Shown here: positions 5,050 to 64,000 of the stretch, in pieces
Layout: every line of letters begins with the position of its first letter
How positions within the stretch are numbered: position 1 is the first letter of the stretch
IMG/VR virus record: IMGVR_UViG_3300044833_000182
Span: 32,109-96,108 of that record
DNA from: a virus
Length of the DNA: 64,000 nucleotides
Strand: one strand, 5' to 3'
Notes under the pieces: model-generated
What the model saw: only the letters and a program-made list of their open reading frames with translations
Databases searched by the model: none
Told to the model about the DNA's origin: nothing
Made by a program: the position numbers and the translations under genes

Positions 5050-5238
5050 ATGAGCATTAACGAGGCTGTGGAATCTCTGAGGCAGAAACTTGGAGAACCC
5101 GACGTGTTCATCGTCCGCCATGACGGCACGACGATAACGGTCGATGTGAACTTCGTCTACCGGGTCGAGGAAGTGAAAGCACTTGGCGACAAGTGGCAGG
5201 ATTTCCCCCTGCAAATCGGTAGGCGAAGTTGTTGGTGA
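5050..5238 (+). CDS. Hypothetical small protein
   Basis: A 62-residue protein (MSINEAVESLRQKLGEP) with a beta-rich centre (DVFIVRHDGTTITVDV). A GGAG site lies 6 bases upstream of the ATG. Nothing recognisable; coding potential rests on the ribosome site and spacing in the gene train. Confidence 0.5.
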   Translation: MSINEAVESLRQKLGEPDVFIVRHDGTTITVDVNFVYRVEEVKALGDKWQDFPLQIGRRSCW

Positions 5239-5299
5239 GAACACAGTGCGGCGCGTCCGCCCCCGGCGGCGTGTGGCCGGGGAGTAAGGAGTCCAAGCT

Positions 5300-5818
5300 A
5301 TCACCGAACTTCACGCCGACAACCTGAGCAACCGCCTGCGGGAATGCTCCTTCTCGTTCGATCGGGCAATGGCTTCCGGAAACTGGCCAGCCGCCATGCG
5401 CCTGTGGCTTGATCTCCTCGCCGCTTACAGTACGGTCATTCGCGAGGCGCGGTCGGCCAGCGTCGAGAATGACGCCCTGTCCGCGGAACTGAAGGTCTAC
5501 CGCCCTACCCGCACCGGCCGGCCAGCAGCGCCATTCCTCGAACGGCACATCTACGTCTTCACGGCGCGATCTCCGTGGGTGTGCGCGGCGGTGGAGTTGC
5601 GTCAGACAATTCAGATACCACCTATCTTTGGAGGCGGATATTATCAGGAGCATTACGTTCCAGAGAAAAAGACGGTGTGCGGGAAAACAACGTCCTACCC
5701 GGTGTCGGAGCGGTTTACGTCGGGCGGGTGGCCGCGCCTGCATGAGTTGTGCCCCGAATGCACGACGGCGCTCGTCAAGGCGGGAGCATTCCCCGTCGAA
5801 CCTATCACCGGTAGTTGA
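5300..5818 (+). CDS. Hypothetical zinc-binding protein, possible ATC start
   Basis: A well-formed AAGGAG (5286-5291) lies 8 bases before an ATC codon at 5300, with no ATG nearby; the next in-frame ATG is 5369, 69 bases later. The intervening codons (ITELHADNLSNRLREC) look coding, so initiation at ATC, or an ATG mutated to ATC, is likely. The 172-residue product has a helical N-terminal half and a C-terminal VCGK...LCPEC cysteine pair set that could bind zinc. Function unknown. Confidence 0.55.
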   Translation: MTELHADNLSNRLRECSFSFDRAMASGNWPAAMRLWLDLLAAYSTVIREARSASVENDALSAELKVYRPTRTGRPAAPFLERHIYVFTARSPWVCAAVELRQTIQIPPIFGGGYYQEHYVPEKKTVCGKTTSYPVSERFTSGGWPRLHELCPECTTALVKAGAFPVEPITGS

Positions 5819-5827
5819 GGAGTCAAC

Positions 5828-6178
5828 ATGCCGACTGAACCACCAGCCCCGCTGTCCAGCGCCGAGGGCGCCGTCCTCTACCTCTTGCGGCGCATCGCCC
5901 GCGATCCGGGCCTGCGCTGGCTAATGCTCCACACCCAGGCGTTCGGCAAGCTATGCGAGGCGGAAGCTCTTCGCACCGAAACGACGGTGGACGCTGTCGA
6001 GAAGAAATACGGCGTGCCGTGCCAGGAGGGGAGCGTCGAACTGGTCCGGCTGCGGAAGGTCAAGGAGGCAGCGGAAACGCTGATCGAGTTTATCGAGCAA
6101 GACGGCGGGAAACTACTCTTCAAGGAATCCAGTGTTGTGCTGGATCTGCGCGCCGCCCTGTCGAAAGACGGTGAGTGA
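5828..6178 (+). CDS. Hypothetical helical protein
   Basis: A 116-residue, mostly helical protein (MPTEPPAPLSS), preceded by GAGGAG. No family recognised. Its stop is followed by a 90-base spacer to the next gene. Confidence 0.55.
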   Translation: MPTEPPAPLSSAEGAVLYLLRRIARDPGLRWLMLHTQAFGKLCEAEALRTETTVDAVEKKYGVPCQEGSVELVRLRKVKEAAETLIEFIEQDGGKLLFKESSVVLDLRAALSKDGE

Positions 6179-6270
6179 CGGCCGGCAAGCAGCGTCAGGG
6201 CGAGAACGAAGCGGCGGCCCGCGCGGGCGCCGGTGTACGGGGAAGCGGAGACCTTTTAAGGAGAATCACG

Positions 6271-6708
6271 ATGGAGAACTGGCGGAAGGTGTTTCGCGAC
6301 GGTCTGGCTCCCCTGCTCTCCGTGGAGCATTTGGAGGCTTTGAAAGAGGCGCTGGAGAGTGACGATCCTGCTCTGCTGCAAGGCTCAACAATGATGCCTC
6401 CATTTTACCGATCTGAATGGTTGGTGGAAGGCGCATGCTTGCTGGCTTACCCATACGCGGCTGTCAATGGAGGTTTTCTGCACGACGACGATCCCTCCGA
6501 ACTCAACATTGAAGCGGCGCAGGCTGGCGACGTTGAGGCATTCTTCGCGCAAACGTGTTCTGGCATCGATCAACGGCTGGCGGACGCGGAAGAACCAACA
6601 CCCCACCAACTCCTGCTGGAATGGTTTGACGAGACGCCGCGCGACGAGATGCGCATCAACCTCCTTCCTGAAATCGAGCGCGAACTGACGCGGCGCGGCG
6701 GTCTCTGA
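6271..6708 (+). CDS. Hypothetical acidic protein
   Basis: A 145-residue acidic protein; ATG 6271 (MENWRKVF) is chosen because AAGGAG sits 8 bases before it, while the in-frame extension to 6175 reads as spacer. No domain recognised. Confidence 0.6.
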   Translation: MENWRKVFRDGLAPLLSVEHLEALKEALESDDPALLQGSTMMPPFYRSEWLVEGACLLAYPYAAVNGGFLHDDDPSELNIEAAQAGDVEAFFAQTCSGIDQRLADAEEPTPHQLLLEWFDETPRDEMRINLLPEIERELTRRGGL

Positions 6709-6736
6709 CTCCTGACTTCCCGGCCGGAGTCCACGG

Positions 6737-7012
6737 ATGGCGACGTATCCGATCACCGGCCCAGACGCTCAGATCCTTAACGCTGGAGCGGTATGTACCT
6801 ACCTCGGTTGCGAGTTGCGCACTCTCCGCCGCTGGATCGAGGCCGGCCGCTTTCCCCGGCCCCGGCGCGTCGGCCGAACGCGGTTCTGGACCGGGCAGGA
6901 CATTGCCGCCTATCTGTCCCTTGAAGGCCGGTATGTCGTCGGCCCGCAGGAAACTGATGACGAGGAACCGCCGAAAAAAAGCAAAAAGAAGGGCGAAACG
7001 CCGCCCGGGTAA
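6737..7012 (+). CDS. Excisionase/MerR-type HTH protein
   Basis: A 91-residue protein. Residues 14-65 (LNAGAVCTYLGCELRTLRRWIEAGRFPRP, RTRFWTGQDIAAYL) form the helix-turn-helix and wing of HTH_17/excisionase proteins, with a conserved Trp in the recognition helix. The tail is Lys-rich (KKSKKK). Likely a DNA-bending or regulatory protein. Confidence 0.7.
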   Translation: MATYPITGPDAQILNAGAVCTYLGCELRTLRRWIEAGRFPRPRRVGRTRFWTGQDIAAYLSLEGRYVVGPQETDDEEPPKKSKKKGETPPG

Positions 7013-7030
7013 AGGATTCTTTCGGTGTCA

Positions 7031-7080
7031 CTCGCGGCCACTGATGACCACTGGCGTACATCTCGCGGCCACTGATGACC
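7031..7080. repeat. 19-bp direct repeat, two copies
   Basis: CTCGCGGCCACTGATGACC occurs at 7031-7049 and again at 7062-7080, 31 bases apart (three helical turns), just upstream of a promoter. This spacing suits a pair of regulator binding sites on one DNA face. Confidence 0.6.
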
Positions 7081-7119
7081 GGGCAAAGCCGATGCCAAAA
7101 AATAGAGAAAATGTAGCTG

Positions 7120-7147
7120 TTGACAGCATGGAAATCGCGTGTAATCT
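7120..7147 (+). promoter_or_regulatory. Sigma-70-type promoter
   Basis: TTGACA (7120-7125), 16 bases, TAATCT (7142-7147), in a locally AT-rich patch 31 bases before the next start codon. The 19-bp direct repeats end 40 bases upstream. Confidence 0.6.
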
Positions 7148-7177
7148 TCTTGAGTCGCCTGCGAAAGGCCCTCGACC

Positions 7178-7486
7178 ATGACGAGCGAAACGCGGCTCAT
7201 GTCCGCCTTGCACGACCTGCCCGCGGGCAACGCCGAGCCCGCCGCCAGCGCACCGCAACCGGCTGCGAAGGTGCTGTCTCCGATCAAACTCCCCTGCCCG
7301 TTGTGCGGAGAGGAAGACGCTGACATCAGCGTGCATCTGGCGAACCTGGGGAGCGGTGAAGAGTTCATGTGCGACGACTGCGGCGAGGACTTCAGCATCG
7401 CCGAGGTTCGCCGGTTCATCGCCCGATGGACGCCGATTTTGGATTGGTTGAGCGCCATTCCGACGACGCCGCCCGACGCCGAGTAA
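7178..7486 (+). CDS. Zinc-ribbon protein
   Basis: A 102-residue protein with CPLCGEED (about residue 40) and CDDCGEDF (about residue 67), the two CxxC knuckles of a zinc ribbon. First gene after the 7120 promoter. Function unknown. Confidence 0.6.
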   Translation: MTSETRLMSALHDLPAGNAEPAASAPQPAAKVLSPIKLPCPLCGEEDADISVHLANLGSGEEFMCDDCGEDFSIAEVRRFIARWTPILDWLSAIPTTPPDAE

Positions 7487-7523
7487 CGCCCCGCACCCCT
7501 TCGCCCCGACATGAGGCCACCAC

Positions 7524-7841
7524 ATGCTCACCCGCTCCCTCCGCACGCCGTACCCCCTGCCCACCGACGCGCCACCGCGCCGGCGCATCACGGAGGTTGA
7601 GGCCGCCGTCATGGTGTCGGCCGTGGGCGGCCTGGCGGACCTGGTGGCCGTGCGGAAGACGCTGGCGATGTTGCTCAACTGGGACCGCGAGCAGCAGGAC
7701 CGCGAGATCGAGGCGGCGCGGCGCAGCGGCCGGGTCACGGGGACGGCGCGCGAGGGACGCAACGGTGTGACGGCCGAGCAGCGGGCGACGGAGACGGCGG
7801 ACGGGTGCGGGTATCTGAGCATCCGCGAGGAGGGGGCATGA
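7524..7841 (+). CDS. Hypothetical protein ahead of the methyltransferase
   Basis: A 105-residue basic, Arg-rich protein. Its stop overlaps the methyltransferase start (ATGA at 7838), so the two are translationally coupled. Could be a partner of the enzyme; nothing in the sequence proves this. Confidence 0.55.
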   Translation: MLTRSLRTPYPLPTDAPPRRRITEVEAAVMVSAVGGLADLVAVRKTLAMLLNWDREQQDREIEAARRSGRVTGTAREGRNGVTAEQRATETADGCGYLSIREEGA

Positions 7842-9073
7842 TCGCAACCGCAAAGGACGTGCTGGAGGGACGGGCGGCGTGGGCGTGTGACCCGGCCGAC
7901 AACCTCGTATGGCTGGCCAGCCTTCCTGCGAGCTGCTGTTCGCTTTCGGTCACATCCCCGCCATACGAAGGTCAGAGACTTTACGGAGCCGTCAAGTTCA
8001 AGCTCGTGGGTCAGGCGTGGGTGGACTGGATGATTCCGCGCGTCGTCGAGATGTGCCGGGTCGTCAACGGTCTGGTGTGTATCAACATGAGCGGTTGCGT
8101 CGAGGATCGGATGTATCACCCCGTCGTCGAGTGGTTGGTTGCCGACCTGACGCGGAATCATGGTCTGGTGTGCGGCCCCGCCCCCTACGTCTTTTTCCGC
8201 TACGGTATCCCCGGCTCGGGAGGGTCGGGAAAAATCGACCGCTACCACCGGCGGGATTGGGAACCGGTGTACGCCTTTGCCCGTCTGGAGAACCTGCCGC
8301 TGAAGTGGACGGACGCGACGGCGATGGGGCATCCGCCGAAGTGGGCGCCGGGTGGGGAGATGAGCAATCGGCTGAAGAACGGCCAGCGCGTCGGCAAGTT
8401 CGGTGCGGGCGGAAGCAGCAACAGCAAGGGAGGTATGGGCCGTAAGAAGAACGGCGAAATGGAACCGACGCGCAACTCTTCCCTGGCGGAAACTGTGATC
8501 GTTGGCGGCGAGACTCCCGGTCTGTTCGGCCCTGTCGAGGAACCGCCAGCCGATCCCTACGGCCACGACCGCGCGACTTCGGGCGGCAAGAGAGCGAACG
8601 GCGAGCGGAAACCGCCAACGAAGCACGTCACCCGTCGCCGTCACGGCGACGGGGAGCGCGACGACGGCCAGTATGAACCGCCCGTTTTGGCGAACCCCGG
8701 GAATGTGATCAAGGCGCTGTACAACGCCGAAGAAGTCCGCCAACTCTTTGACGACCTCGTGACGCAGAAGATCGAGCCTGGCGACGTGGTCCGTTGTCTC
8801 GTCGGCGGCGGTCTGATGGGGCATCCGTTGTGCCACCGCAATGAAGCCCCGTTTCCAGAAAGCCTCGTGGAGTTCTTCATCCGTTCCTACGCCGCTCCCG
8901 GCAGCATCGTCCTTGACGCCTTCTCCGGGAGTGGTACGACGGGCGCCGTCGCGGTGCGGGAGGGGCGGCGGTTCATCGGCGCGGACGTGCGGCCCGATCA
9001 GATCGAGGTTGCCCGGCAGCGGATTAGTGGCGAGACGCCGTCTCTCTTCGCCGCGCAGGAGCCCCCGCCCTGA
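7838..9073 (+). CDS. DNA methyltransferase, SPPY (beta) class
   Basis: A 411-residue protein; ATG 7838 overlaps the previous stop. TSPPY at residues 39-43 is motif IV and DAFSGSGTTG near residue 365 is motif I, giving the IV-then-I order of beta-class amino-methyltransferases. SPPY is more usual for N4-cytosine enzymes, DPPY for N6-adenine, so N4-methylcytosine is the best guess. A low-complexity Gly/Ser/Arg insert occupies about residues 185-290. No restriction endonuclease is adjacent: probably an orphan protecting phage DNA. Confidence 0.85.
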   Translation: MIATAKDVLEGRAAWACDPADNLVWLASLPASCCSLSVTSPPYEGQRLYGAVKFKLVGQAWVDWMIPRVVEMCRVVNGLVCINMSGCVEDRMYHPVVEWLVADLTRNHGLVCGPAPYVFFRYGIPGSGGSGKIDRYHRRDWEPVYAFARLENLPLKWTDATAMGHPPKWAPGGEMSNRLKNGQRVGKFGAGGSSNSKGGMGRKKNGEMEPTRNSSLAETVIVGGETPGLFGPVEEPPADPYGHDRATSGGKRANGERKPPTKHVTRRRHGDGERDDGQYEPPVLANPGNVIKALYNAEEVRQLFDDLVTQKIEPGDVVRCLVGGGLMGHPLCHRNEAPFPESLVEFFIRSYAAPGSIVLDAFSGSGTTGAVAVREGRRFIGADVRPDQIEVARQRISGETPSLFAAQEPPP

Positions 9074-44546: not shown

Positions 44547-44838
44547 TTTCATTTCATCACGTTTCGTCTCAAAGCGTTGAACGACAGGACGGCCGGGTCT
44601 TCTTCGTCCGCGCCGTCCGGCTCGTCGTCCCAGAAGATCGGCTCGATGCCCAGCTCGATGTGAGACGCATGGACGACGCAGATATTGTGGCACAAAAACT
44701 TGCACAGCACCTCGTTCTTCATCGAAACGTCCGTCCGGCTGCGGACGTGGTCGCGGAACTTCGCCTTGATCATCGAGAACGTGCTTTCGGCGTTGCTGCG
44801 CTGGTGATAGTGCTTCAGGAACTCTTCGGAGCGGACGG
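44520..44838 (-). mobile_element. Transposase remnant (DDE, IS4/IS5-like), C-terminal part
   Basis: On the minus strand the frame from about 44838 to 44549 encodes SEEFLKHYHQRSNAESTF, MIKAKFRDHVRSRTDVSMKNE and VLCKFLCHNICVV, the C-terminal block of an IS4/IS5-class DDE transposase (the Glu of AESTF is the likely third catalytic residue). No N-terminal part. The local base composition is more AT-rich at 44520-44580. It has cut off both neighbouring genes. Confidence 0.65.
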
Positions 44839-50857: not shown

Positions 50858-51841
50858 ATGGCAGTGGTCAAGGTCGCAGTACCGAAGCTGAACATCACCG
50901 CACACTTCACGCCACGGCAAGCGATGCGCCGCCGCGGCGTGTTCCGCGAGTTTCAGCACACGGCGCCCATCATCCCGGCCACGGTGCTGCCGGTGGATTG
51001 CACGGGTGACGGCAAAGTGATCGCGCTGATGGATCACAATGACGCTTACGGAATCTGCGGATTTGCGATGGCAAATCACGTCGATGGGATCTGGACGTTC
51101 GGGCAGGGCAAGCCCGGGTGGAAGGAAAGCGTCTGCGATCAGGACGCCTTGCTGGCGCAGTACCTGCGGGTCAGCGGCGGGGACAACGGCGTCGATGAAG
51201 CGATGATGGTCGGCTCGGGCGGCGCCTGGCGCGTCGGCATCGCGGGGAACCCGGCGGCGTGCATCGTGGACGCCCTCGACATCGACGTGGCCAACATACC
51301 GCTCGCTCAGTTTTGCATCGACAACTTTTACAACGTGTGTATGGCCTGGTCGGTCCCTGACGACTTCATCAAGGGGTTTGACACGGGCACGGTGTGGACC
51401 AACGCCGACACACCCAATCCCATGAACGGCCACTACACGCCGTTGGCCGACGTGCGCACTGACGGCCTCTACCGTCTGTTTTCATGGGGCACCTGGTGCT
51501 GGGTCGGCCCGAAGTTCGTCGCCAGCGTGCAGCCGCAGTGTTTTACGGCGTTCTCCGCCCGCCAGTTCGACCCGGCCACCGGACTCGACAGCAAGAATCG
51601 GCACGTCACGACCCAGGCGAAGGTGTGGTCTTCTTGCGGTGGCAACGCCATCCCGGCCAGCGTTATCAACGCTTTTCCGCCCCCGGGTGGGGTTGTCCCT
51701 CCTCCGCCACCTCCGCCTCCTCCCCCGCCTGTGGGGCCAACGGAGGCCAAGGTCCAGGCGGCCGTGGACGTGCTGTTCTCTCGTTACAGGCGCGTGACGA
51801 AGCAAATGATCGACGCGGCCATTCAGGGAGCATTCCGTTGA
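50858..51841 (+). CDS. Putative papain-like cysteine peptidase
   Basis: A 327-residue protein. DHNDAYGICGFAMANH (Cys 67) and MNGHYTPLADV (His 192) followed by FSWGTWCWVGPKF fit the order and context of papain-like proteins seen in phages and actinobacteria (a GDC-type helix, then GHAV and WG). An eleven-residue proline run (about 284-294) links a helical C-terminus that resembles a small self-association unit. No signal peptide. Could act on host wall or proteins; activity unproven. Confidence 0.45.
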   Translation: MAVVKVAVPKLNITAHFTPRQAMRRRGVFREFQHTAPIIPATVLPVDCTGDGKVIALMDHNDAYGICGFAMANHVDGIWTFGQGKPGWKESVCDQDALLAQYLRVSGGDNGVDEAMMVGSGGAWRVGIAGNPAACIVDALDIDVANIPLAQFCIDNFYNVCMAWSVPDDFIKGFDTGTVWTNADTPNPMNGHYTPLADVRTDGLYRLFSWGTWCWVGPKFVASVQPQCFTAFSARQFDPATGLDSKNRHVTTQAKVWSSCGGNAIPASVINAFPPPGGVVPPPPPPPPPPPVGPTEAKVQAAVDVLFSRYRRVTKQMIDAAIQGAFR

Positions 51842-53262: not shown

Positions 53263-54465
53263 ATGGTCATGCACCAGCGCTGCTATCGATTCCGTATGCA
53301 ACCCAACCGGAAGCAAGAACAGTCTCTTGCTCGTCTGGCAGGTGCGCGTCGATGGGTATGGAACTGGGCGCTTGCTCGGCGGAAGATGTACTTTGCCGAA
53401 CATGGCAAGGGTATTTCAGCGGCGCAGCTTTCCCGAGAATTGACGGCGCTGAAGGATCAGCCAGAAACGGCGTGGTTGCGCGAAGTCCACGCGCAGGCGC
53501 TGCAGCAGGTTTTGCGCGACTTGGACCGGGCGTTCGTCAACTTCTTCGAGCGCCGCGCCGGTTTTCCGCGATTCAAGAGCCGCAAGCGATCTATCCCGTC
53601 TTTCCGCATTCCGCAACACGTCAAGGTTGCGGACGGCAAGGTGTATGTTCCGAAGATCGGCCTCGTGCGAATTCGCCAATCACAGGCGGTCGAAGGCGAG
53701 AGCAAAAGTGCCACCTTCAAGCGGGACGCCTGCGGGAACTGGTACGTTACGCTGGTTGTTGCCTTTACCATGCCGGACGTTGCGTTGCCGCCGCCCGATC
53801 CGGAGAAGGTTGTCGGCATGGACGCTGGGCTGAAGGACTTCATCGTTCTGTCCAACGAGGAGCGCGTTCCGGCCCCGCAGTTTTACCGCAAAGCGCAGAA
53901 GAAACTACGTCGCGCCAACAAGGCATTTTCTCGACGGAAGCGAGGGAGCAAGCGGCGCGACAAGGCGCGACGACGGATTGCCCGCATTCAACAGCAGACG
54001 GCGAACAAGCGGCAGGACTTTCTGCACAAACTGAGTACGGACATTGTCAAACGGTTCGATGGCGTCTGCATCGAGGATCTGAACGTCAAGGGCCTTGCGA
54101 GAACAAAGCTGGCCAAATCGTTCACCGATGCCGCACACGGGGAGTTCAGACGGATGCTGGAGTACAAGTCGCTCTGGCATCGCAAGCATCTTGTTGTCGT
54201 GGGGCGATCCTTCCCCTCGACGAAGACTTGCAGTGCGTGCGGCGCGGTCAACGACAACCTCACGTTGAAGGATCGGCAGTGGATCTGTCCGGCGTGCGGG
54301 GCTATTCTGGATCGCGACCTCAACGCCTCTTGCAACATCAGAACGGAAGGACTGAGAATCTTGGCCGTGGGGCACACGGACAATAACGCTCGGGGAGTCT
54401 TTATAAGACCTTGCGCAAGCGGGGCAGTGGACGATGAACCGAGAATCCCGATGCCGCAAGGCTAG
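53263..54465 (+). CDS. tnpB: TnpB, RNA-guided nuclease of IS200/IS605 type
   Basis: A 400-residue protein (ATG 53263 or 53269). RuvC residues: D187 in GMDAGLK, E271 in CIEDLNV, D352 in DRDLNAS; zinc finger CSAC (323, 326) and CPAC (342, 345). All present, no stops. Its sequence differs greatly from the copy at 28063, so it is a separate acquisition. The guide RNA should overlap the 3' end near 54350-54500. No TnpA in the window. Confidence 0.85.
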   Translation: MVMHQRCYRFRMQPNRKQEQSLARLAGARRWVWNWALARRKMYFAEHGKGISAAQLSRELTALKDQPETAWLREVHAQALQQVLRDLDRAFVNFFERRAGFPRFKSRKRSIPSFRIPQHVKVADGKVYVPKIGLVRIRQSQAVEGESKSATFKRDACGNWYVTLVVAFTMPDVALPPPDPEKVVGMDAGLKDFIVLSNEERVPAPQFYRKAQKKLRRANKAFSRRKRGSKRRDKARRRIARIQQQTANKRQDFLHKLSTDIVKRFDGVCIEDLNVKGLARTKLAKSFTDAAHGEFRRMLEYKSLWHRKHLVVVGRSFPSTKTCSACGAVNDNLTLKDRQWICPACGAILDRDLNASCNIRTEGLRILAVGHTDNNARGVFIRPCASGAVDDEPRIPMPQG

Positions 54466-54514: not shown

Positions 54515-54772
54515 ATGCCGCCACTGAAGGACATCCTTGGAAAGCCGGGGCAAGGGATTCACTTTCATTTCCTCGGCATTGCCGTCCTTGACGTGCTGGC
54601 GACCGTGCTCCTGGGAGCGGCGATGGGCTGGTTGACCTGCTGGCTGACTGACTCGATGCCAATGATCTGGTTTGTCGCGGTGCTGTATGTCGTGATTCTG
54701 TTCGCGATTGGTGAAGCACTGCATCTTATCATTGGCGTCGATACGACGGTCGCTCGATGGTTACAGGAATAG
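54515..54772 (+). CDS. Small integral membrane protein
   Basis: An 85-residue protein from ATG 54515. PPLKDILGKPGQGIHFHFLG leads into membrane spans (VLDVLATVLLGAAMGWL, WFVAVLYVVILFAIG) and ends ALHLIIGVDTTVARWL. The LGxPGxGxH ... GVxT pattern is shared with conserved membrane proteins of large viruses and phages; function unknown. The TnpB element ends just upstream. Confidence 0.6.
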   Translation: MPPLKDILGKPGQGIHFHFLGIAVLDVLATVLLGAAMGWLTCWLTDSMPMIWFVAVLYVVILFAIGEALHLIIGVDTTVARWLQE

Positions 54773-54791
54773 GTTGGGAAAGGGGCGAGTA

Positions 54792-55349
54792 ATGTACAAA
54801 GAATATCTCGAATGCGAGAAGCCGCTGTTCCCCCTCCGCAACCCCATGCTGCGGAGCGGTGTCCAGCCGACGCCAACCGATATCCTCGGGCCGTTCTACA
54901 AGGCTGGCGCGCCGCTGGTCGCAAACGGCGTCATCGGCGAGGCCGATCAGTTCAACCGCCTGACCATCCACGTTTCCGGGCGTGTTCTATCGGTGGACGG
55001 CGAGCCCGTCGCCGGGGCCGTACTGGACGTGTGGCAGGCGGACAGCCACGGCGTGTACGACAACGACGGGTACAGACTGCGCGGCAAGGTCGAAGCAAAC
55101 TATGTCAATGTCGGTGGATACGAGTTTCAGACGGTCATGCCCGGGGACTACCAGATCGGCGACGAGCCGCCCGAGTTCCGCTGCGCCCACATCCACGTCA
55201 TCGTGACGGCGTCTGGGTTCAAGACGCTGACGACGCAACTGTACTTTGCTGATGACAAATACGATGCGACTGATCGCTGGTTCGACGCCAGGCGGGTGAT
55301 CCAGGTTCCGCACGGGACGTTCGATTTCGTCCTCGTGCCGGAGGGCTGA
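54792..55349 (+). CDS. Intradiol ring-cleavage dioxygenase-like protein
   Basis: A 185-residue protein. The fold and Fe(III) ligands of intradiol dioxygenases (catechol 1,2- or protocatechuate 3,4-dioxygenase) are in place: WQADSHGVYD (Y89), VMPGDYQIG (Y120), CAHIHVIV (H133, H135), then TTQLYF. It would split an aromatic diol with O2. No signal peptide and no other aromatic pathway gene nearby. It could be an accessory metabolic gene or a re-used structural fold. Confidence 0.7.
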   Translation: MYKEYLECEKPLFPLRNPMLRSGVQPTPTDILGPFYKAGAPLVANGVIGEADQFNRLTIHVSGRVLSVDGEPVAGAVLDVWQADSHGVYDNDGYRLRGKVEANYVNVGGYEFQTVMPGDYQIGDEPPEFRCAHIHVIVTASGFKTLTTQLYFADDKYDATDRWFDARRVIQVPHGTFDFVLVPEG

Positions 55350-56095: not shown

Positions 56096-57727
56096 GTGTG
56101 GAGGAATCTTCGCTGGCTGAAAATCCTGGCCCTCGCCGCGACGGTCGGACTGACAACGGCCGCCGCGCCAGCCCCGGAACCGCCGCTGTCGTCGCCGGCC
56201 GACGCGGTTGTCCTTGCCTGGAAGGACGCACAGACGCTGCCCGCAGACGATGCGCCCTTCATCCGCTACCTATGGGTGGCGACGCCCGGCGCGAAAGCCA
56301 CGGCGGTCTGGAGGCTGCATCAGAACCTCCTCTCCCGGTATTCCGAGATGACGGAGCCGGTCGAGATAACGCCCTGGCTGTGGCGCATCGACCTGCGCGA
56401 ACCGCAGTGGGAACCGGCGACCTGGGAGAAATCGGCGACTGCGGAGAACGAGGTTTACTTCCATCAGACGGTGACTCTCGCGGAAGACGCCGTCTTCGCG
56501 AAGGTCCGGCCGATCGGATTGAGGACGAAGGGAACGTTCAGCAAGGGCCGCAAGCCGGGGAGGTTCCTCCAGAGCAAGAAGGCTGGCGCGAAGGTGCAGC
56601 TCGCCGCGGCATGGCTGCCCGGCGAGACGGTCGTGAAGCTCCGCGAGTTGCTGTATACAGAATCGCCTGTTCTGAATGCGGAGTGGTTGTTCGTCCAGAG
56701 CGCCCGGCAGCGGAACCTCCTCAACGACGACAACCACGGGCTCGGCTACTACGACTTTTTGCGGCTGAAGGACCGCAGGGATTACTTCGAGCTGATCGAC
56801 CCGAAGTCAAACTTCGTCCGTGCCTCCGAACTGTTCGGCCGGGAGTTCCTGGCGGCTCTGGACAAGAGCGCAATCAGCCCGCAGAACCGGCAGTTTTTCC
56901 GGTATCAGAGCCGGGGCGGCGGGACATGGTCAACGCTTGACACGGACAAGCAGAAGGGTCGCGGGGTAGCGCTGAAAAACCTCCGCAGGCCGGACTCAGG
57001 CGCAAAGGACCAGACGGGCAGGTTCAAGCACAACACGGAGGAGTGGTACGGGCCGATGTCCAACGGCCTGCCGGCGGTGTTTCTCAGCGACGACAAGGGA
57101 GTGCGGCAGAACGTCGCCCCCGGAGATACGCATGGGCTGCACGATCGGAGCAGCCTGAACGAGAGCAACAGCCAGACGCTGCACATCGGGCTTTCCTGCT
57201 GGCAGTGTCACTATCCGAACGTGCTGAAGCCGTTCACCGACGACGTCCGCAAACAGTACGCCTTGGGGCAACTGACCTTCCTGGGAGCGAAGGACAAGAA
57301 GCAGGGGCTGGAGTTCCGCCAGCTCCTGATGAGTGATATCTACACGGCATTCGCGGACGATCAGGCGCTTTACGTCCGCGCCTTCGCGAAGGCCACGGTG
57401 ACGAGGGACCACCCGAAGGGGCTGGATGTCAAGACGGCGGTGAAGTGGTACAGCCGGTGGTTCCACGCCTACGCCACCGACGACGTAACGCTGGCCAGTT
57501 CGGCTCGCTGGTTGGGGGTGACGGAGGCATTGTGGTTGCGGGCCCTGCGGAATTACGCCCGGCCGCTGCCGAATGCGGCGATCCTCTCCGATGAGGCGCT
57601 GGGCAGGTTCTTGCTGAAGGAACCGCTTGGGATGACGCGGTTGACGTTCGAGGATTCATACTCGCTCGCCCAGGTTGTGCTGGCGCAAGAACGGGCGCGG
57701 ATGACGAAGGCAAAGGACAAACCATGA
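56096..57727 (+). CDS. Exported c-type cytochrome-like protein
   Basis: A 543-residue protein from GTG 56096. Residues 1-22 (WRNLRWLKILALAATVGLTTA) form a Sec signal peptide. SCWQCH (C368-H372) is a CxxCH heme-c attachment site in a C-terminal helical domain. The N-terminal 350 residues are not recognised. The stop overlaps the next gene, another heme-c protein (ATGA), so the two are probably made together and exported to the periplasm. Confidence 0.6.
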   Translation: MWRNLRWLKILALAATVGLTTAAAPAPEPPLSSPADAVVLAWKDAQTLPADDAPFIRYLWVATPGAKATAVWRLHQNLLSRYSEMTEPVEITPWLWRIDLREPQWEPATWEKSATAENEVYFHQTVTLAEDAVFAKVRPIGLRTKGTFSKGRKPGRFLQSKKAGAKVQLAAAWLPGETVVKLRELLYTESPVLNAEWLFVQSARQRNLLNDDNHGLGYYDFLRLKDRRDYFELIDPKSNFVRASELFGREFLAALDKSAISPQNRQFFRYQSRGGGTWSTLDTDKQKGRGVALKNLRRPDSGAKDQTGRFKHNTEEWYGPMSNGLPAVFLSDDKGVRQNVAPGDTHGLHDRSSLNESNSQTLHIGLSCWQCHYPNVLKPFTDDVRKQYALGQLTFLGAKDKKQGLEFRQLLMSDIYTAFADDQALYVRAFAKATVTRDHPKGLDVKTAVKWYSRWFHAYATDDVTLASSARWLGVTEALWLRALRNYARPLPNAAILSDEALGRFLLKEPLGMTRLTFEDSYSLAQVVLAQERARMTKAKDKP

Positions 57728-58602
57728 AACTGTTCGGCTTCTTCCTGATCCTCCTTGCCGGCCTGGCGCTGCTGATGCTCACGCCGCCGGCGGAGGCCGT
57801 CTGTTACACCAGCGGTTATTCCGTCCCGTCGTATGCGCCCAGCTACACCAGCTTCCGCAAGAGTTTCAGCGGCTACAGCAGTTACTCGACGGTTTATCCC
57901 GTCGCGCAGTTCGTCGGCGTGCCGATCCCGATTTTTGGCAGCGTGTACATCGGCCCGACCGGCGTTGCCAGCGCCGCGGCGGCGATTGGACAGGGCACCG
58001 GCCCGGTCGCCCAGCAAGCCGCCGCCGTGCAGGCCGCGCCTGCCCCTGTTGCTCCCGCTCCCGTAGCTGCCGCCCCGCAGCCAAACAACGACATGCTCAC
58101 GCAAGTCCTCGCCGTGGTGAAGCAGATCGCCGCGAAGCAGGACGCACACGGTTACGCGATCAAGAGCCTGGCGGACCGGCAGGACCGGCACGAGCAGCGG
58201 CTGGCAGCGGTGGAAGCGGCGATGAACCTTCCTCCGCCCCCACCCACTCCGCCTCTTCCACCGCCGCCCATGAAGGAGGCCGCCCCGGACGAAGCAGCCG
58301 TGCCGCCTGCGCCCCCTGTCAAGCTCGACGCCGCCCTGACGATCGCCAACCGTTCCTGTGCCGCTTGCCACCTGAAGGGCAACCACAAGCGAGCGGATTC
58401 TGACGGCTTCGTGCTGCTGGAAGCGAAGGACAGGCGGACCGCGCTGACCGACAAGCAGCGGAAGAACTACCTGTCGCACATCAGCGGGGGCAAGATGCCG
58501 CCCCCGGACAACGCGCTGAGCATCCCGCCGCTGACCGCTGACGAGAAGAAGGTTCTGACTGCCGATCTCGACAATTACCCGATCAAGCCCGAGGCGAAGT
58601 AA
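57724..58602 (+). CDS. Exported c-type cytochrome with coiled-coil stalk
   Basis: A 292-residue protein. Signal peptide MKLFGFFLILLAGLALLML...AEA; Tyr/Ser-rich segment; Ala/Pro linker; coiled coil (about 130-170); Pro-rich linker; then a small cytochrome c domain: SCAACH (C212-H216) and GGKMPPP (Met 258, likely axial ligand), ending LTADEKKVLTADL as in planctomycete cytochromes. An electron-transfer module on a stalk. Confidence 0.7.
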   Translation: MKLFGFFLILLAGLALLMLTPPAEAVCYTSGYSVPSYAPSYTSFRKSFSGYSSYSTVYPVAQFVGVPIPIFGSVYIGPTGVASAAAAIGQGTGPVAQQAAAVQAAPAPVAPAPVAAAPQPNNDMLTQVLAVVKQIAAKQDAHGYAIKSLADRQDRHEQRLAAVEAAMNLPPPPPTPPLPPPPMKEAAPDEAAVPPAPPVKLDAALTIANRSCAACHLKGNHKRADSDGFVLLEAKDRRTALTDKQRKNYLSHISGGKMPPPDNALSIPPLTADEKKVLTADLDNYPIKPEAK

Positions 58603-59141: not shown

Positions 59142-59389
59142 TGCCGCGATACCACCCGACCGTCGCCGTGCTGGCCAGCGATGTCAATGCCGTGACGCAT
59201 CACGCCCCCTTCGGCGATCAGGCGGCGCGGTACGAGGACAACCGCAAGGCGGTCCTTGGCTTGATGGTCTTGCTCCGGGGGAACTGCCCGGCGTCGCCCG
59301 AACTGGAAACCGCCCTGAATCGGCTGCGTGAGTGTCTTATGTGGAGTAACGCATCCATCGCATGCAACGAGAAAGAAGATAAACAATGA
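59138..59389 (+). CDS. acb2: Acb2/Tad1-hairpin-type cyclic nucleotide sponge
   Basis: An 83-residue protein. THHAPFGDQAARYEDNR, then CPASPELETALNRLRECL and MWSNASIACNE match the Acb2 family pattern (YHPPKGDQxxRY...CPxSxE...MWANAxIARNE). Acb2 proteins assemble into hexamers that bind the cyclic di- and trinucleotides of CBASS (and some Thoeris signals), blocking host immunity. All pattern positions are kept except small changes. Clear homology by eye; activity inferred. Confidence 0.75.
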   Translation: MMPRYHPTVAVLASDVNAVTHHAPFGDQAARYEDNRKAVLGLMVLLRGNCPASPELETALNRLRECLMWSNASIACNEKEDKQ

Positions 59390-59907
59390 AGACTTTCGCA
59401 TTGTTCGCCGCCCTGTTCTGCTTGACGCTGTTCGCCGTCCCCTCCCAGGCCGGCAAGTTCGCGAAGGGTGGAGGCGGCAAGGGGGCCGGCGCCCGGACGG
59501 CTGGGGCGAAGGCTGCTGCGCCTGGGGCCTTTCGCCGCGGCAGCGGGTTCCGGCACAATGGCTACTTCGCGGGCAACAGCATCTACGGCCGCGGCTACTA
59601 CGTCAACGGGCTGTACGTCGGCGCGACCGCCCAGCTTTACGCGGCCTACACGGCTCCTTCCGCGACGATTTACGCCGACCCGGCGCCAGCCCAGGCGTTC
59701 GCCGCCCCCGCGCCGGCATACGTCGCGCCTCCGCCGCAGCCAGCGGTGTACTACGCGCCCGCTCCCGTGGTCTACTACTCGACCCCGGCGTATTACTCCG
59801 TTCCAACTTACTACAGCCCGGCCTACTACGGCGGCGGCTACGGCGGCTTCCGCAGTTATGGCTACGGCGGAGGGTTCCGCGGAGGGTTCCGCGGCGGGCG
59901 GCGGTAA
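59386..59907 (+). CDS. Exported Gly/Tyr-rich protein
   Basis: A 173-residue protein with signal peptide MKTFALFAALFCLTLFAVPSQA, a Gly/Lys/Ala-rich section, a short ordered part (NSIYGRGYYVNGLYVGATA) and a Tyr/Pro/Gly-rich end (PAYYGGGYGG, FRGGFRGGRR). Resembles surface or cell-wall-associated proteins. ATG overlaps the previous stop. Confidence 0.6.
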   Translation: MKTFALFAALFCLTLFAVPSQAGKFAKGGGGKGAGARTAGAKAAAPGAFRRGSGFRHNGYFAGNSIYGRGYYVNGLYVGATAQLYAAYTAPSATIYADPAPAQAFAAPAPAYVAPPPQPAVYYAPAPVVYYSTPAYYSVPTYYSPAYYGGGYGGFRSYGYGGGFRGGFRGGRR

Positions 59908-62381: not shown

Positions 62382-62891
62382 ATGGGCGGCAAAACCACAA
62401 ACACCACAAAGGCAAAGCCAAAAAAGAAGACGCATCCTTGGCAACCGAAGTTCCTGGCCGCGCTGAAGAAGACCGGCAACATCTGCAAGTCTGCTAAAGC
62501 GGCTGGCGTTGATCGAGGGACCGTTTACGACTGGCGGGACGCCGACGAGGCAAACGCGGAAGCGATGACAGAGGCGATCTCTCACGCCAAGGAAGACTCG
62601 ACAGACGCCCTGGAAGCGGAGGCGGAGCGGCGGGCGAAGAAGGCAAGCGACGTGCTCTTGATCTTCTTGCTGAAGTCGCGGAAGCCGGACGTGTATCGGG
62701 AGGTTCATCGGCATGAGCACAGCGGCCCCGGCGGTGGGGCAATCACCCATGAGCAGCGAATCACCTTCGCGGAATTCGAGCGACTACCTCTCGAAGACCG
62801 CGTCCGCATCCTTCGCGCGCAGGTACTCCTACCGGGTGGGGATCGAAACGGGCGAACTGTTCCGCCAGGAAATGAGCGTGTGCCGGGATGA
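62382..62891 (+). CDS. terS: Terminase small subunit-like protein
   Basis: A 169-residue protein: basic start (TKAKPKKKTHPW), HTH FLAALKKTGNICKSAKAAGVDRGTVYDW and a helical oligomerisation part (DALEAEAERRAKK, DVLLIFLLKSRKPDVYRE). It would recognise phage DNA for packaging. The end (about 130-169) overlaps the large subunit frame; GTG 62352 is an alternative start. Confidence 0.7.
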   Translation: MGGKTTNTTKAKPKKKTHPWQPKFLAALKKTGNICKSAKAAGVDRGTVYDWRDADEANAEAMTEAISHAKEDSTDALEAEAERRAKKASDVLLIFLLKSRKPDVYREVHRHEHSGPGGGAITHEQRITFAEFERLPLEDRVRILRAQVLLPGGDRNGRTVPPGNERVPG

Positions 62892-64000
62892 CCCGGTCCA
62901 CTTCATCTCGCAGTGGTGCTACACCTGTGACCCGCGCGACCGCCGCGTGTGGCCGCTGGACCCCTTCCCCAAGCAGGAGGCGTTCGTTCGCTGGCTGCAA
63001 GAACGGGAGCGGACGCAGACGGACGGACTGGCCGACAAGAGCCGGGACATGGGGGTAACGTGGTTCTGCTCCGCCTACGCCTTGCAAGGCTGGCTCTTTC
63101 GCTCCGCGTTCTCGTGCGGGTTCGGCTCGCGCAAGCTGGAACTGGTCGATACGCTTGGGGACCTCGACAGCATCTTCGAGAAGGTCCGCTTCATGCTCTA
63201 TTCGCTGCCAGCGTGGATGCTGCCCGAAGGATTCCGCCGTGTCGCGCATGACAAGGAGGGCGTCCTTGTCAACCCGGCAAACGGTTCGAGTATCAAGGGC
63301 GAAGGAGGAAATAACATCGGCCGCGGCGGGCGGTCCTCGATTTACTTTGTGGACGAGGCGGCCTACATCGAGCGTCCCGAGTCGATCGAGCGCAGCCTTG
63401 CGGAGAACACCAACTGCCGGATCGACGTGAGCACGCCAAACGGCCCCGGCAATCCGTTCGCGACCAAGAGGTTTTCGGGGAAGGTCAGCGTCTTCACCCT
63501 TCATTGGAAGGACGATCCGCGGAAGGGCGAGGAATGGTACGCCGAGAAGAAGAGGACCAAAGACCCCGTCACCGTCGCTCAGGAAATCGATATCGACTAC
63601 TCGGCGTCCGTCGAGGGCATCTGCATCCCCGCCGTCTGGGTCCGCGCCGCCGTGGAATTGAAATTGCCGATGGGCGCCCCCATTGTCGCCGGCCTGGACA
63701 TCGCCGAGTTTGGCGCTGACCGCTGCGTCCTGATCCCCCGCGCCGGCCCCTTTGTCCTTCCCCCCGTCGATTGGGGACAGTGCAACACGACGGAGACGGC
63801 GCACCGGGCAAGGGAGATTGCGCAGAAACAGGAGGCAAAAACGGTGTGGTTCGACGTTGGGGGAGTCGGGGCTGGAATCCGGGGGACGTGGGACAGTAGC
63901 GAGCAGAGGCTCCCTTTCGACGCGGTCGCCGTGAATGCGGGAGAGTCGCCGACCTTGACACGCTGGCCGGACGGGAAAACCTCGAAGGAGCGGTTTGTAA
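62713..64000 (+). CDS. terL: Terminase large subunit, 3' end outside window
   Basis: The frame is open to the window edge. ADKSRDMGVTW is the Walker A-type loop of phage packaging motors, SIYFVDEAAY the Walker B with catalytic Glu, DVSTPNGPGNPF the coupling motif, and VAGLDIAEFGADR the first Asp of the C-terminal nuclease that cuts concatemers. Start is unsure: ATG 62713 and 62749 overlap the small subunit widely; ATG 62872 gives a short overlap but drops RRYSYRVGIETGELFRQE, which looks conserved. Confidence 0.85.
   Translation, partial: MSTAAPAVGQSPMSSESPSRNSSDYLSKTASASFARRYSYRVGIETGELFRQEMSVCRDDPVHFISQWCYTCDPRDRRVWPLDPFPKQEAFVRWLQERERTQTDGLADKSRDMGVTWFCSAYALQGWLFRSAFSCGFGSRKLELVDTLGDLDSIFEKVRFMLYSLPAWMLPEGFRRVAHDKEGVLVNPANGSSIKGEGGNNIGRGGRSSIYFVDEAAYIERPESIERSLAENTNCRIDVSTPNGPGNPFATKRFSGKVSVFTLHWKDDPRKGEEWYAEKKRTKDPVTVAQEIDIDYSASVEGICIPAVWVRAAVELKLPMGAPIVAGLDIAEFGADRCVLIPRAGPFVLPPVDWGQCNTTETAHRAREIAQKQEAKTVWFDVGGVGAGIRGTWDSSEQRLPFDAVAVNAGESPTLTRWPDGKTSKERFV

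Follow-up and report, generated by a model that had tools for sequence, protein, structure and literature searches.

Among the described systems closest to the locus studied here, the PSCyt proteins have no assigned function, and a role in carbohydrate metabolism, rather than respiration, has been proposed for them (PMC5615132). The pair of phage genes examined here, A and B, resembles PSCyt1 (PF07635) proteins in several respects: the heme domain of B aligns with the PSCyt1-like first heme domain of fused host proteins, the products are predicted to be exported, and a Met-Pro follows the CxxCH motif. It differs in that B scores under the PSCyt1 cut-off, in that the A domain matched no described family, and in being phage-borne and encoded by two genes. 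With diheme cytochrome c peroxidase and MauG the pair would share a proposed arrangement, an electron-transfer heme feeding one open heme; unlike those enzymes, it carries its hemes on two chains and shows no significant sequence match to them. Cytochromes P460 and c'-beta also have beta strands ahead of a C-side CxxCH, and cytochrome c'-beta provided the top structural row for A, at a level too weak to count. Phage auxiliary metabolic genes for electron transfer likewise place genes for redox proteins on phages; in contrast, A-B is not a recent host copy and no metabolic partner was recognised.

The window, meaning the whole 64,000-nucleotide stretch analysed, corresponds to the final 64 kb of an IMG/VR record 96,108 bp in length. 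The two ends of the record share a terminal overlap in which 126 bases are identical and the second-last base is mismatched (window 63873-64000 against the record start). The same PHROG profile was matched at both ends (hits 244-541 and 548-597), with the terminase ORF crossing the join. Because of this terminal overlap and of the terminase reading through it, the IMG/VR class "linear" is probably wrong and the genome is probably closed, which makes an assembly artefact unlikely. The first-pass annotation had considered that the block might be a chromosomal segment joined by assembly error; the 126-bp closure and the terminase across the join argue against this. The genome also carries an HK97-type portal, a phage capsid gene and an integrase, so that the phage is probably temperate, and a Gemmata-like host is indicated by two TIGR02996 proteins and by the prophage relatives. 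No plasmid match was found.

Table 1. Features of the A-B locus and its phage context (window positions)
Feature	Position	Strand	Remarks
Gene A	56096..57727	+	543 aa; GTG start; export-type N terminus; one CxxCH
Gene A heme motif CWQCH	57197-57211	+	residue 368
A/B ATGA stop/start overlap	57724-57727	+	read from sequence; translational coupling
Gene B	57724..58602	+	292 aa; export-type N terminus
Gene B heme motif CAACH	58357-58371	+	residue 212
Gene B Met258 (within GKMPP), candidate heme ligand	58495-58497	+	
Gene C, secreted Gly/Tyr-rich protein	59386..59907	+	composition and position only, no family; tentative module part
Terminase large subunit	62713..64000, continuing into record start	+	phrog_2, E 4.8e-27; phage linkage, outside module

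The ORF coordinates, motifs and N termini bore out the initial description of two adjacent, overlapping genes that both encode signal peptides and CxxCH (Table 1). A four-base NTGA overlap at the A/B junction is present in all six loci of the window clade (the window, L010, L099, L102, L105 and L106). At each N terminus a charged residue accompanies a hydrophobic run and an Ala-type cleavage context; exported status is a prediction here, made for A, B and the other ORFs of the record with a crude N-terminal rule. ORFs were called by a simple GC-position rule, and CxxCH was found in five of the 135 called over the whole record, A and B being the sole adjacent, exported-looking ones and the remaining three carrying no export flag. 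In B, a Tyr/Pro-rich tether leads into a coiled coil, and a class I-type heme domain forms the C terminus. Its AlphaFold model, in which residues 24-126 are disordered and helices at 122-141 and 146-167 are followed by a Pro stretch and a helical heme domain, agrees with the coiled-coil/Pro stalk noted at first sight, as does Met258 with the Met ligand noted there, ligation being predicted.

The cysteines and histidine of CxxCH are invariant in all 38 aligned A relatives, and CxxCH with a downstream Met-Pro is kept in 13 of 13 B proteins; this conservation across the homologs of both genes places the motif beyond chance, and it runs counter to the refuting outcome named in the first-pass annotation, a CxxCH that homologs do not keep. 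Judged from their sequences, A and B are both c-type heme proteins, with heme attachment and export predicted. A survey of alignment columns identified R57, Y218, S258, R265, E316 and N323 as further invariant residues of the A family, and these, like the CxxCH, are common to phage A and the fused planctomycete two-heme protein. When a second heme ligand was sought in the A columns, no conserved His, Met or Lys was found outside CxxCH, and for this reason the A heme is probably open.

Family assignment differed between the two proteins. B of the window reached 15.9 bits against the Cytochrome_CBB3 profile (Pfam cut-off 27), which its relatives in L010 (29.7 bits), L011 (27.3) and L013 (34.4) passed, and the PSCyt1 scores of L012 (20.6 bits) and L013 (16.3) lay below the gathering score of 22, with no PSCyt1 hit reported for B of the window. 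The B heme domain aligned with the host heme 1 domain with an hhalign E value of 2.5e-13 and a probability of 98%, compared with 45% for a P460 control. A PDB sequence search with B returned compositional matches and cytochrome c6 at E 0.62 only. The A domain had no match in Pfam, NCBIfam, PHROG, PDB or BFVD, the PDB sequence search giving chance matches only. Cytochrome P460 (PF16694) was not reported for A, and hhalign comparison with P460 profiles gave probabilities of 18-25%, on the motif alone, so that P460 stands as a lead only; the CCP_MauG Pfam domain was not reported for A or B, the best relative reaching E 0.12, below the cut-off. The structure model of A is of moderate confidence (pLDDT 76.8, pTM 0.82). 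Foldseek returned nothing at E <= 0.001 from PDB or BFVD, an absence of match that does not amount to a new fold, and the best structural row, for A 218-421, was the cytochrome c'-beta 7s5o (VIA-align Z 3.7, 115 aligned residues, rmsd 4.2). By comparison with the libraries and open papers that the searches covered, the A heme domain is a family described in none of these libraries; some planctomycetes have several copies per genome.

The search for the pair in other planctomycete phages located it in both phages and prophages. Tandem A-B genes are present in eight other viral contigs (LR756511.1, L010, L011, L012, L013, L014, L019 and L020), and in five records, the window record included, a terminase lies on the same record as the pair. 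The viral relatives were found by three-row and four-row alignment scans, single-protein and two-row scans giving nothing new; since the viral collections were scanned with short peptide patterns, the counts of viral relatives are lower bounds. LR756511.1 is a 595-kb huge phage that carries A followed by B and an additional A-like gene that lacks a B partner. This additional gene (L009 6725-7903) is shorter and adjoins a gene for an exported C39-like peptidase.

In one Gemmataceae-type family, an A-like match was detected in 40 of 95 genomes, and four of the 95 (L099, L102, L105 and L106) harbor the phage-type split pair, again in the order A then B and with A 36-40% identical to that of L010. 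In L099 the pair has a tape measure gene next to it and an integrase at a distance of about 15 kb, and in L102 a portal gene lies about 34 kb off on the same contig. Prophage context was judged for these two, L105 and L106 being on short contigs, and it is clear in at least two Gemmataceae genomes. Those of the remaining A-like matches in this family that were read over their whole length each have two hemes in a single ORF. The early remark that cytochrome c genes are a rarity on phages is generally correct, but the module recurs among planctomycete phages; the titles and abstracts listed in searches of open papers contained no report of phage c-type cytochromes or of planctomycete phages with such genes.

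On chromosomes the two heme domains are joined. All 27 non-redundant complete chromosomal relatives consist of one ORF with an N-terminal PSCyt1-like heme domain followed by the A domain with a second CxxCH, making the phage pair the split counterpart of a host two-heme protein that is itself undescribed. The split architecture is absent from chromosomal relatives outside the phage-type clade. In an unrooted tree, phage and host A proteins form separate clades (support 100/99), and the four prophage A proteins group with the phages, inside the window subclade. A clade of their own at 100/99 argues against recent host capture. These sequence comparisons mark the pair as a module of phage genes of long standing rather than a fragment strayed from a host. 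An old event either divided a fused protein into the pair or fused two proteins into the host form, the unrooted tree not giving the direction. The alternative that the block is a host island or an assembly join, also raised in the first-pass annotation, could appeal to the relatives in host chromosomes. It is nevertheless extremely unlikely given the circular closure, a GC content of the pair equal to that of its surroundings, the well-supported phage clade, and the recurrence on other phages of a split form that hosts replace with a fused protein.

We tentatively favour, at slightly under even confidence, a reading in which A and B constitute a conserved, phage-owned two-heme redox module working in the host cell envelope. 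It is likely, from the fused relatives, that A and B associate in the way the two domains of the fused protein would, and that the B heme exchanges electrons with the A heme; the split and fused relation makes this binding directly testable. In such a complex, the His/Met-type heme of B, held on its Pro/Tyr-rich tether, would pass electrons to or from the A heme, and the A heme would probably be an open site binding a substrate or gas. An exported heme pair owned by planctomycete phages, from prophage size to 595 kb, would represent an unexplored action on the unusual planctomycete envelope.

The fused host proteins often carry FGE-sulfatase, WD40, TPR, SHD1, DUF4384 or kinase domains, and some host relatives adjoin caspases. 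These associations bear on a different reading, in which the two-heme unit is an envelope gas or redox sensor that signals, or a decoy mimicking the fused host sensor in order to block it. One host protein (L038 1-2508) is a candidate two-heme receptor kinase, with a Ser/Thr kinase, a transmembrane helix, and extracytoplasmic PSCyt1 and A-type heme domains; this kinase-fused paralog fits a sensor equally well as a redox complex. A sensor or decoy would also accord with the host relatives bearing WD40, TPR, FGE or SHD1 modules or lying next to caspases, with a phage version stripped of every effector domain, and with an A heme site that may be open. No regulator was recognised adjoining the phage pair, though, and a simple decoy need not keep both hemes, as the old phage clade does. 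We consider this reading unlikely, while giving it some weight.

It had also been suggested that the pair alters host respiration, for which we found no specific support. That A-B feeds or drains the host respiratory chain during infection would suit exported heme-c proteins, and the B heme is of the electron-transfer type, with relatives reaching the Cytochrome_CBB3 cut-off. Against this, no gene for an oxidase, a reductase or heme supply was recognised next to the pair, the domains joined to the fused relatives (FGE, WD40, TPR or kinase) are not respiratory ones, and PSCyt proteins have been linked to carbohydrate metabolism rather than respiration (PMC5615132); we regard auxiliary respiration as improbable. 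The proposal that the neighbouring dioxygenase and the pair form a periplasmic redox unit fared no better. The gene at 54708-55349 encodes a true intradiol dioxygenase homolog (PF00775, E 1.7e-22) with no obvious signal peptide; it had no match in the stretches around nine phage-type loci and was left out of the module on that account, and this lack of conservation with the pair likewise counts against a respiratory role.

Downstream of A-B, seven of the eight other viral loci have a gene for a secreted Gly/Tyr-rich protein; in the window, gene C is separated from B by two small ORFs, and its Tyr content is 12.7%, compared with a phage mean of 2.07%. Upstream, a matrixin gene directly precedes A in L102, L105 and L106, with a matrixin motif at the same place in L099, and at L002, L012, L013 and L014 the genes upstream include a papain-like one that has its catalytic motif. 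A C39-like gene was recognised by eye near the pair in L019 and L020, on the opposite strand. No peptidase was found near the pair at L010 or L011 and none with support in the window, and neither the window phage nor the large-phage records gave a match to matrixin (PF00413). An ORF of the window at 50858-51841 (327 aa) looks papain-like by eye (GICGFAMA, NGHYTPL, SWGTWC) and has a poly-Pro stretch; its proposed homology to the papain-like gene carried by other phages was set aside, there being no family or PDB support.

In most Planctomycetales, Gemmataceae among them, genes for peptidoglycan synthesis are missing and the wall is made of Cys-rich YTV proteins (PMC8567305), and no peptidoglycan hydrolase family was found among 55 proteins of the window phage. 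On the basis of the neighbouring peptidases, the protein wall and this lack of a hydrolase, we propose that the A-B complex, with an exported peptidase and the Tyr-rich secreted protein, could oxidise or reduce cross-links of the Gemmataceae protein wall, a change that would serve phage release or the exclusion of other phages. Such a remodelling role is possible but rather unlikely as it stands. A narrower version is doubtful: a wall-attack module of an exported peptidase (matrixin, papain-like or C39-like) and the split two-heme pair, replacing the usual endolysin, in which the redox pair would open or make disulfide or tyrosine cross-links. The apparent lack of an endolysin may perhaps reflect an undetected one.

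The wall of the next host could instead be met at entry, if A and B were carried on the virion, for example in the tail or on the surface. In the L099 and L102 prophages the pair is found beyond the tail genes, on the same strand, and the tether of B is stalk-like. Covalent attachment of c-type heme normally takes place outside the cytoplasm, and this, with the Sec-type N termini, conflicts with assembly into virions in the cytoplasm; in addition, the pair has a different position in the window phage, upstream of the terminase. A virion component is accordingly very improbable.

Additional observations concern other genes. An IS605 OrfB/TnpB-type gene (OrfB_IS605, Cas12f1-like TNB) at 53263-54465 lies close upstream of the pair, between the HNH endonuclease and dioxygenase genes. 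L003 encodes a 1035-aa head-region protein (5119-8226) that combines a weak prohead protease match with a 2'-5' RNA ligase/cyclic phosphodiesterase domain, and a relative (39% over 213 aa) is encoded next to the portal in prophage L104. Finally, a small minus-strand ORF of the window (44549-44773) shows 60% identity over 47 aa to L010 15700-15840 and is kept in these otherwise different phages.
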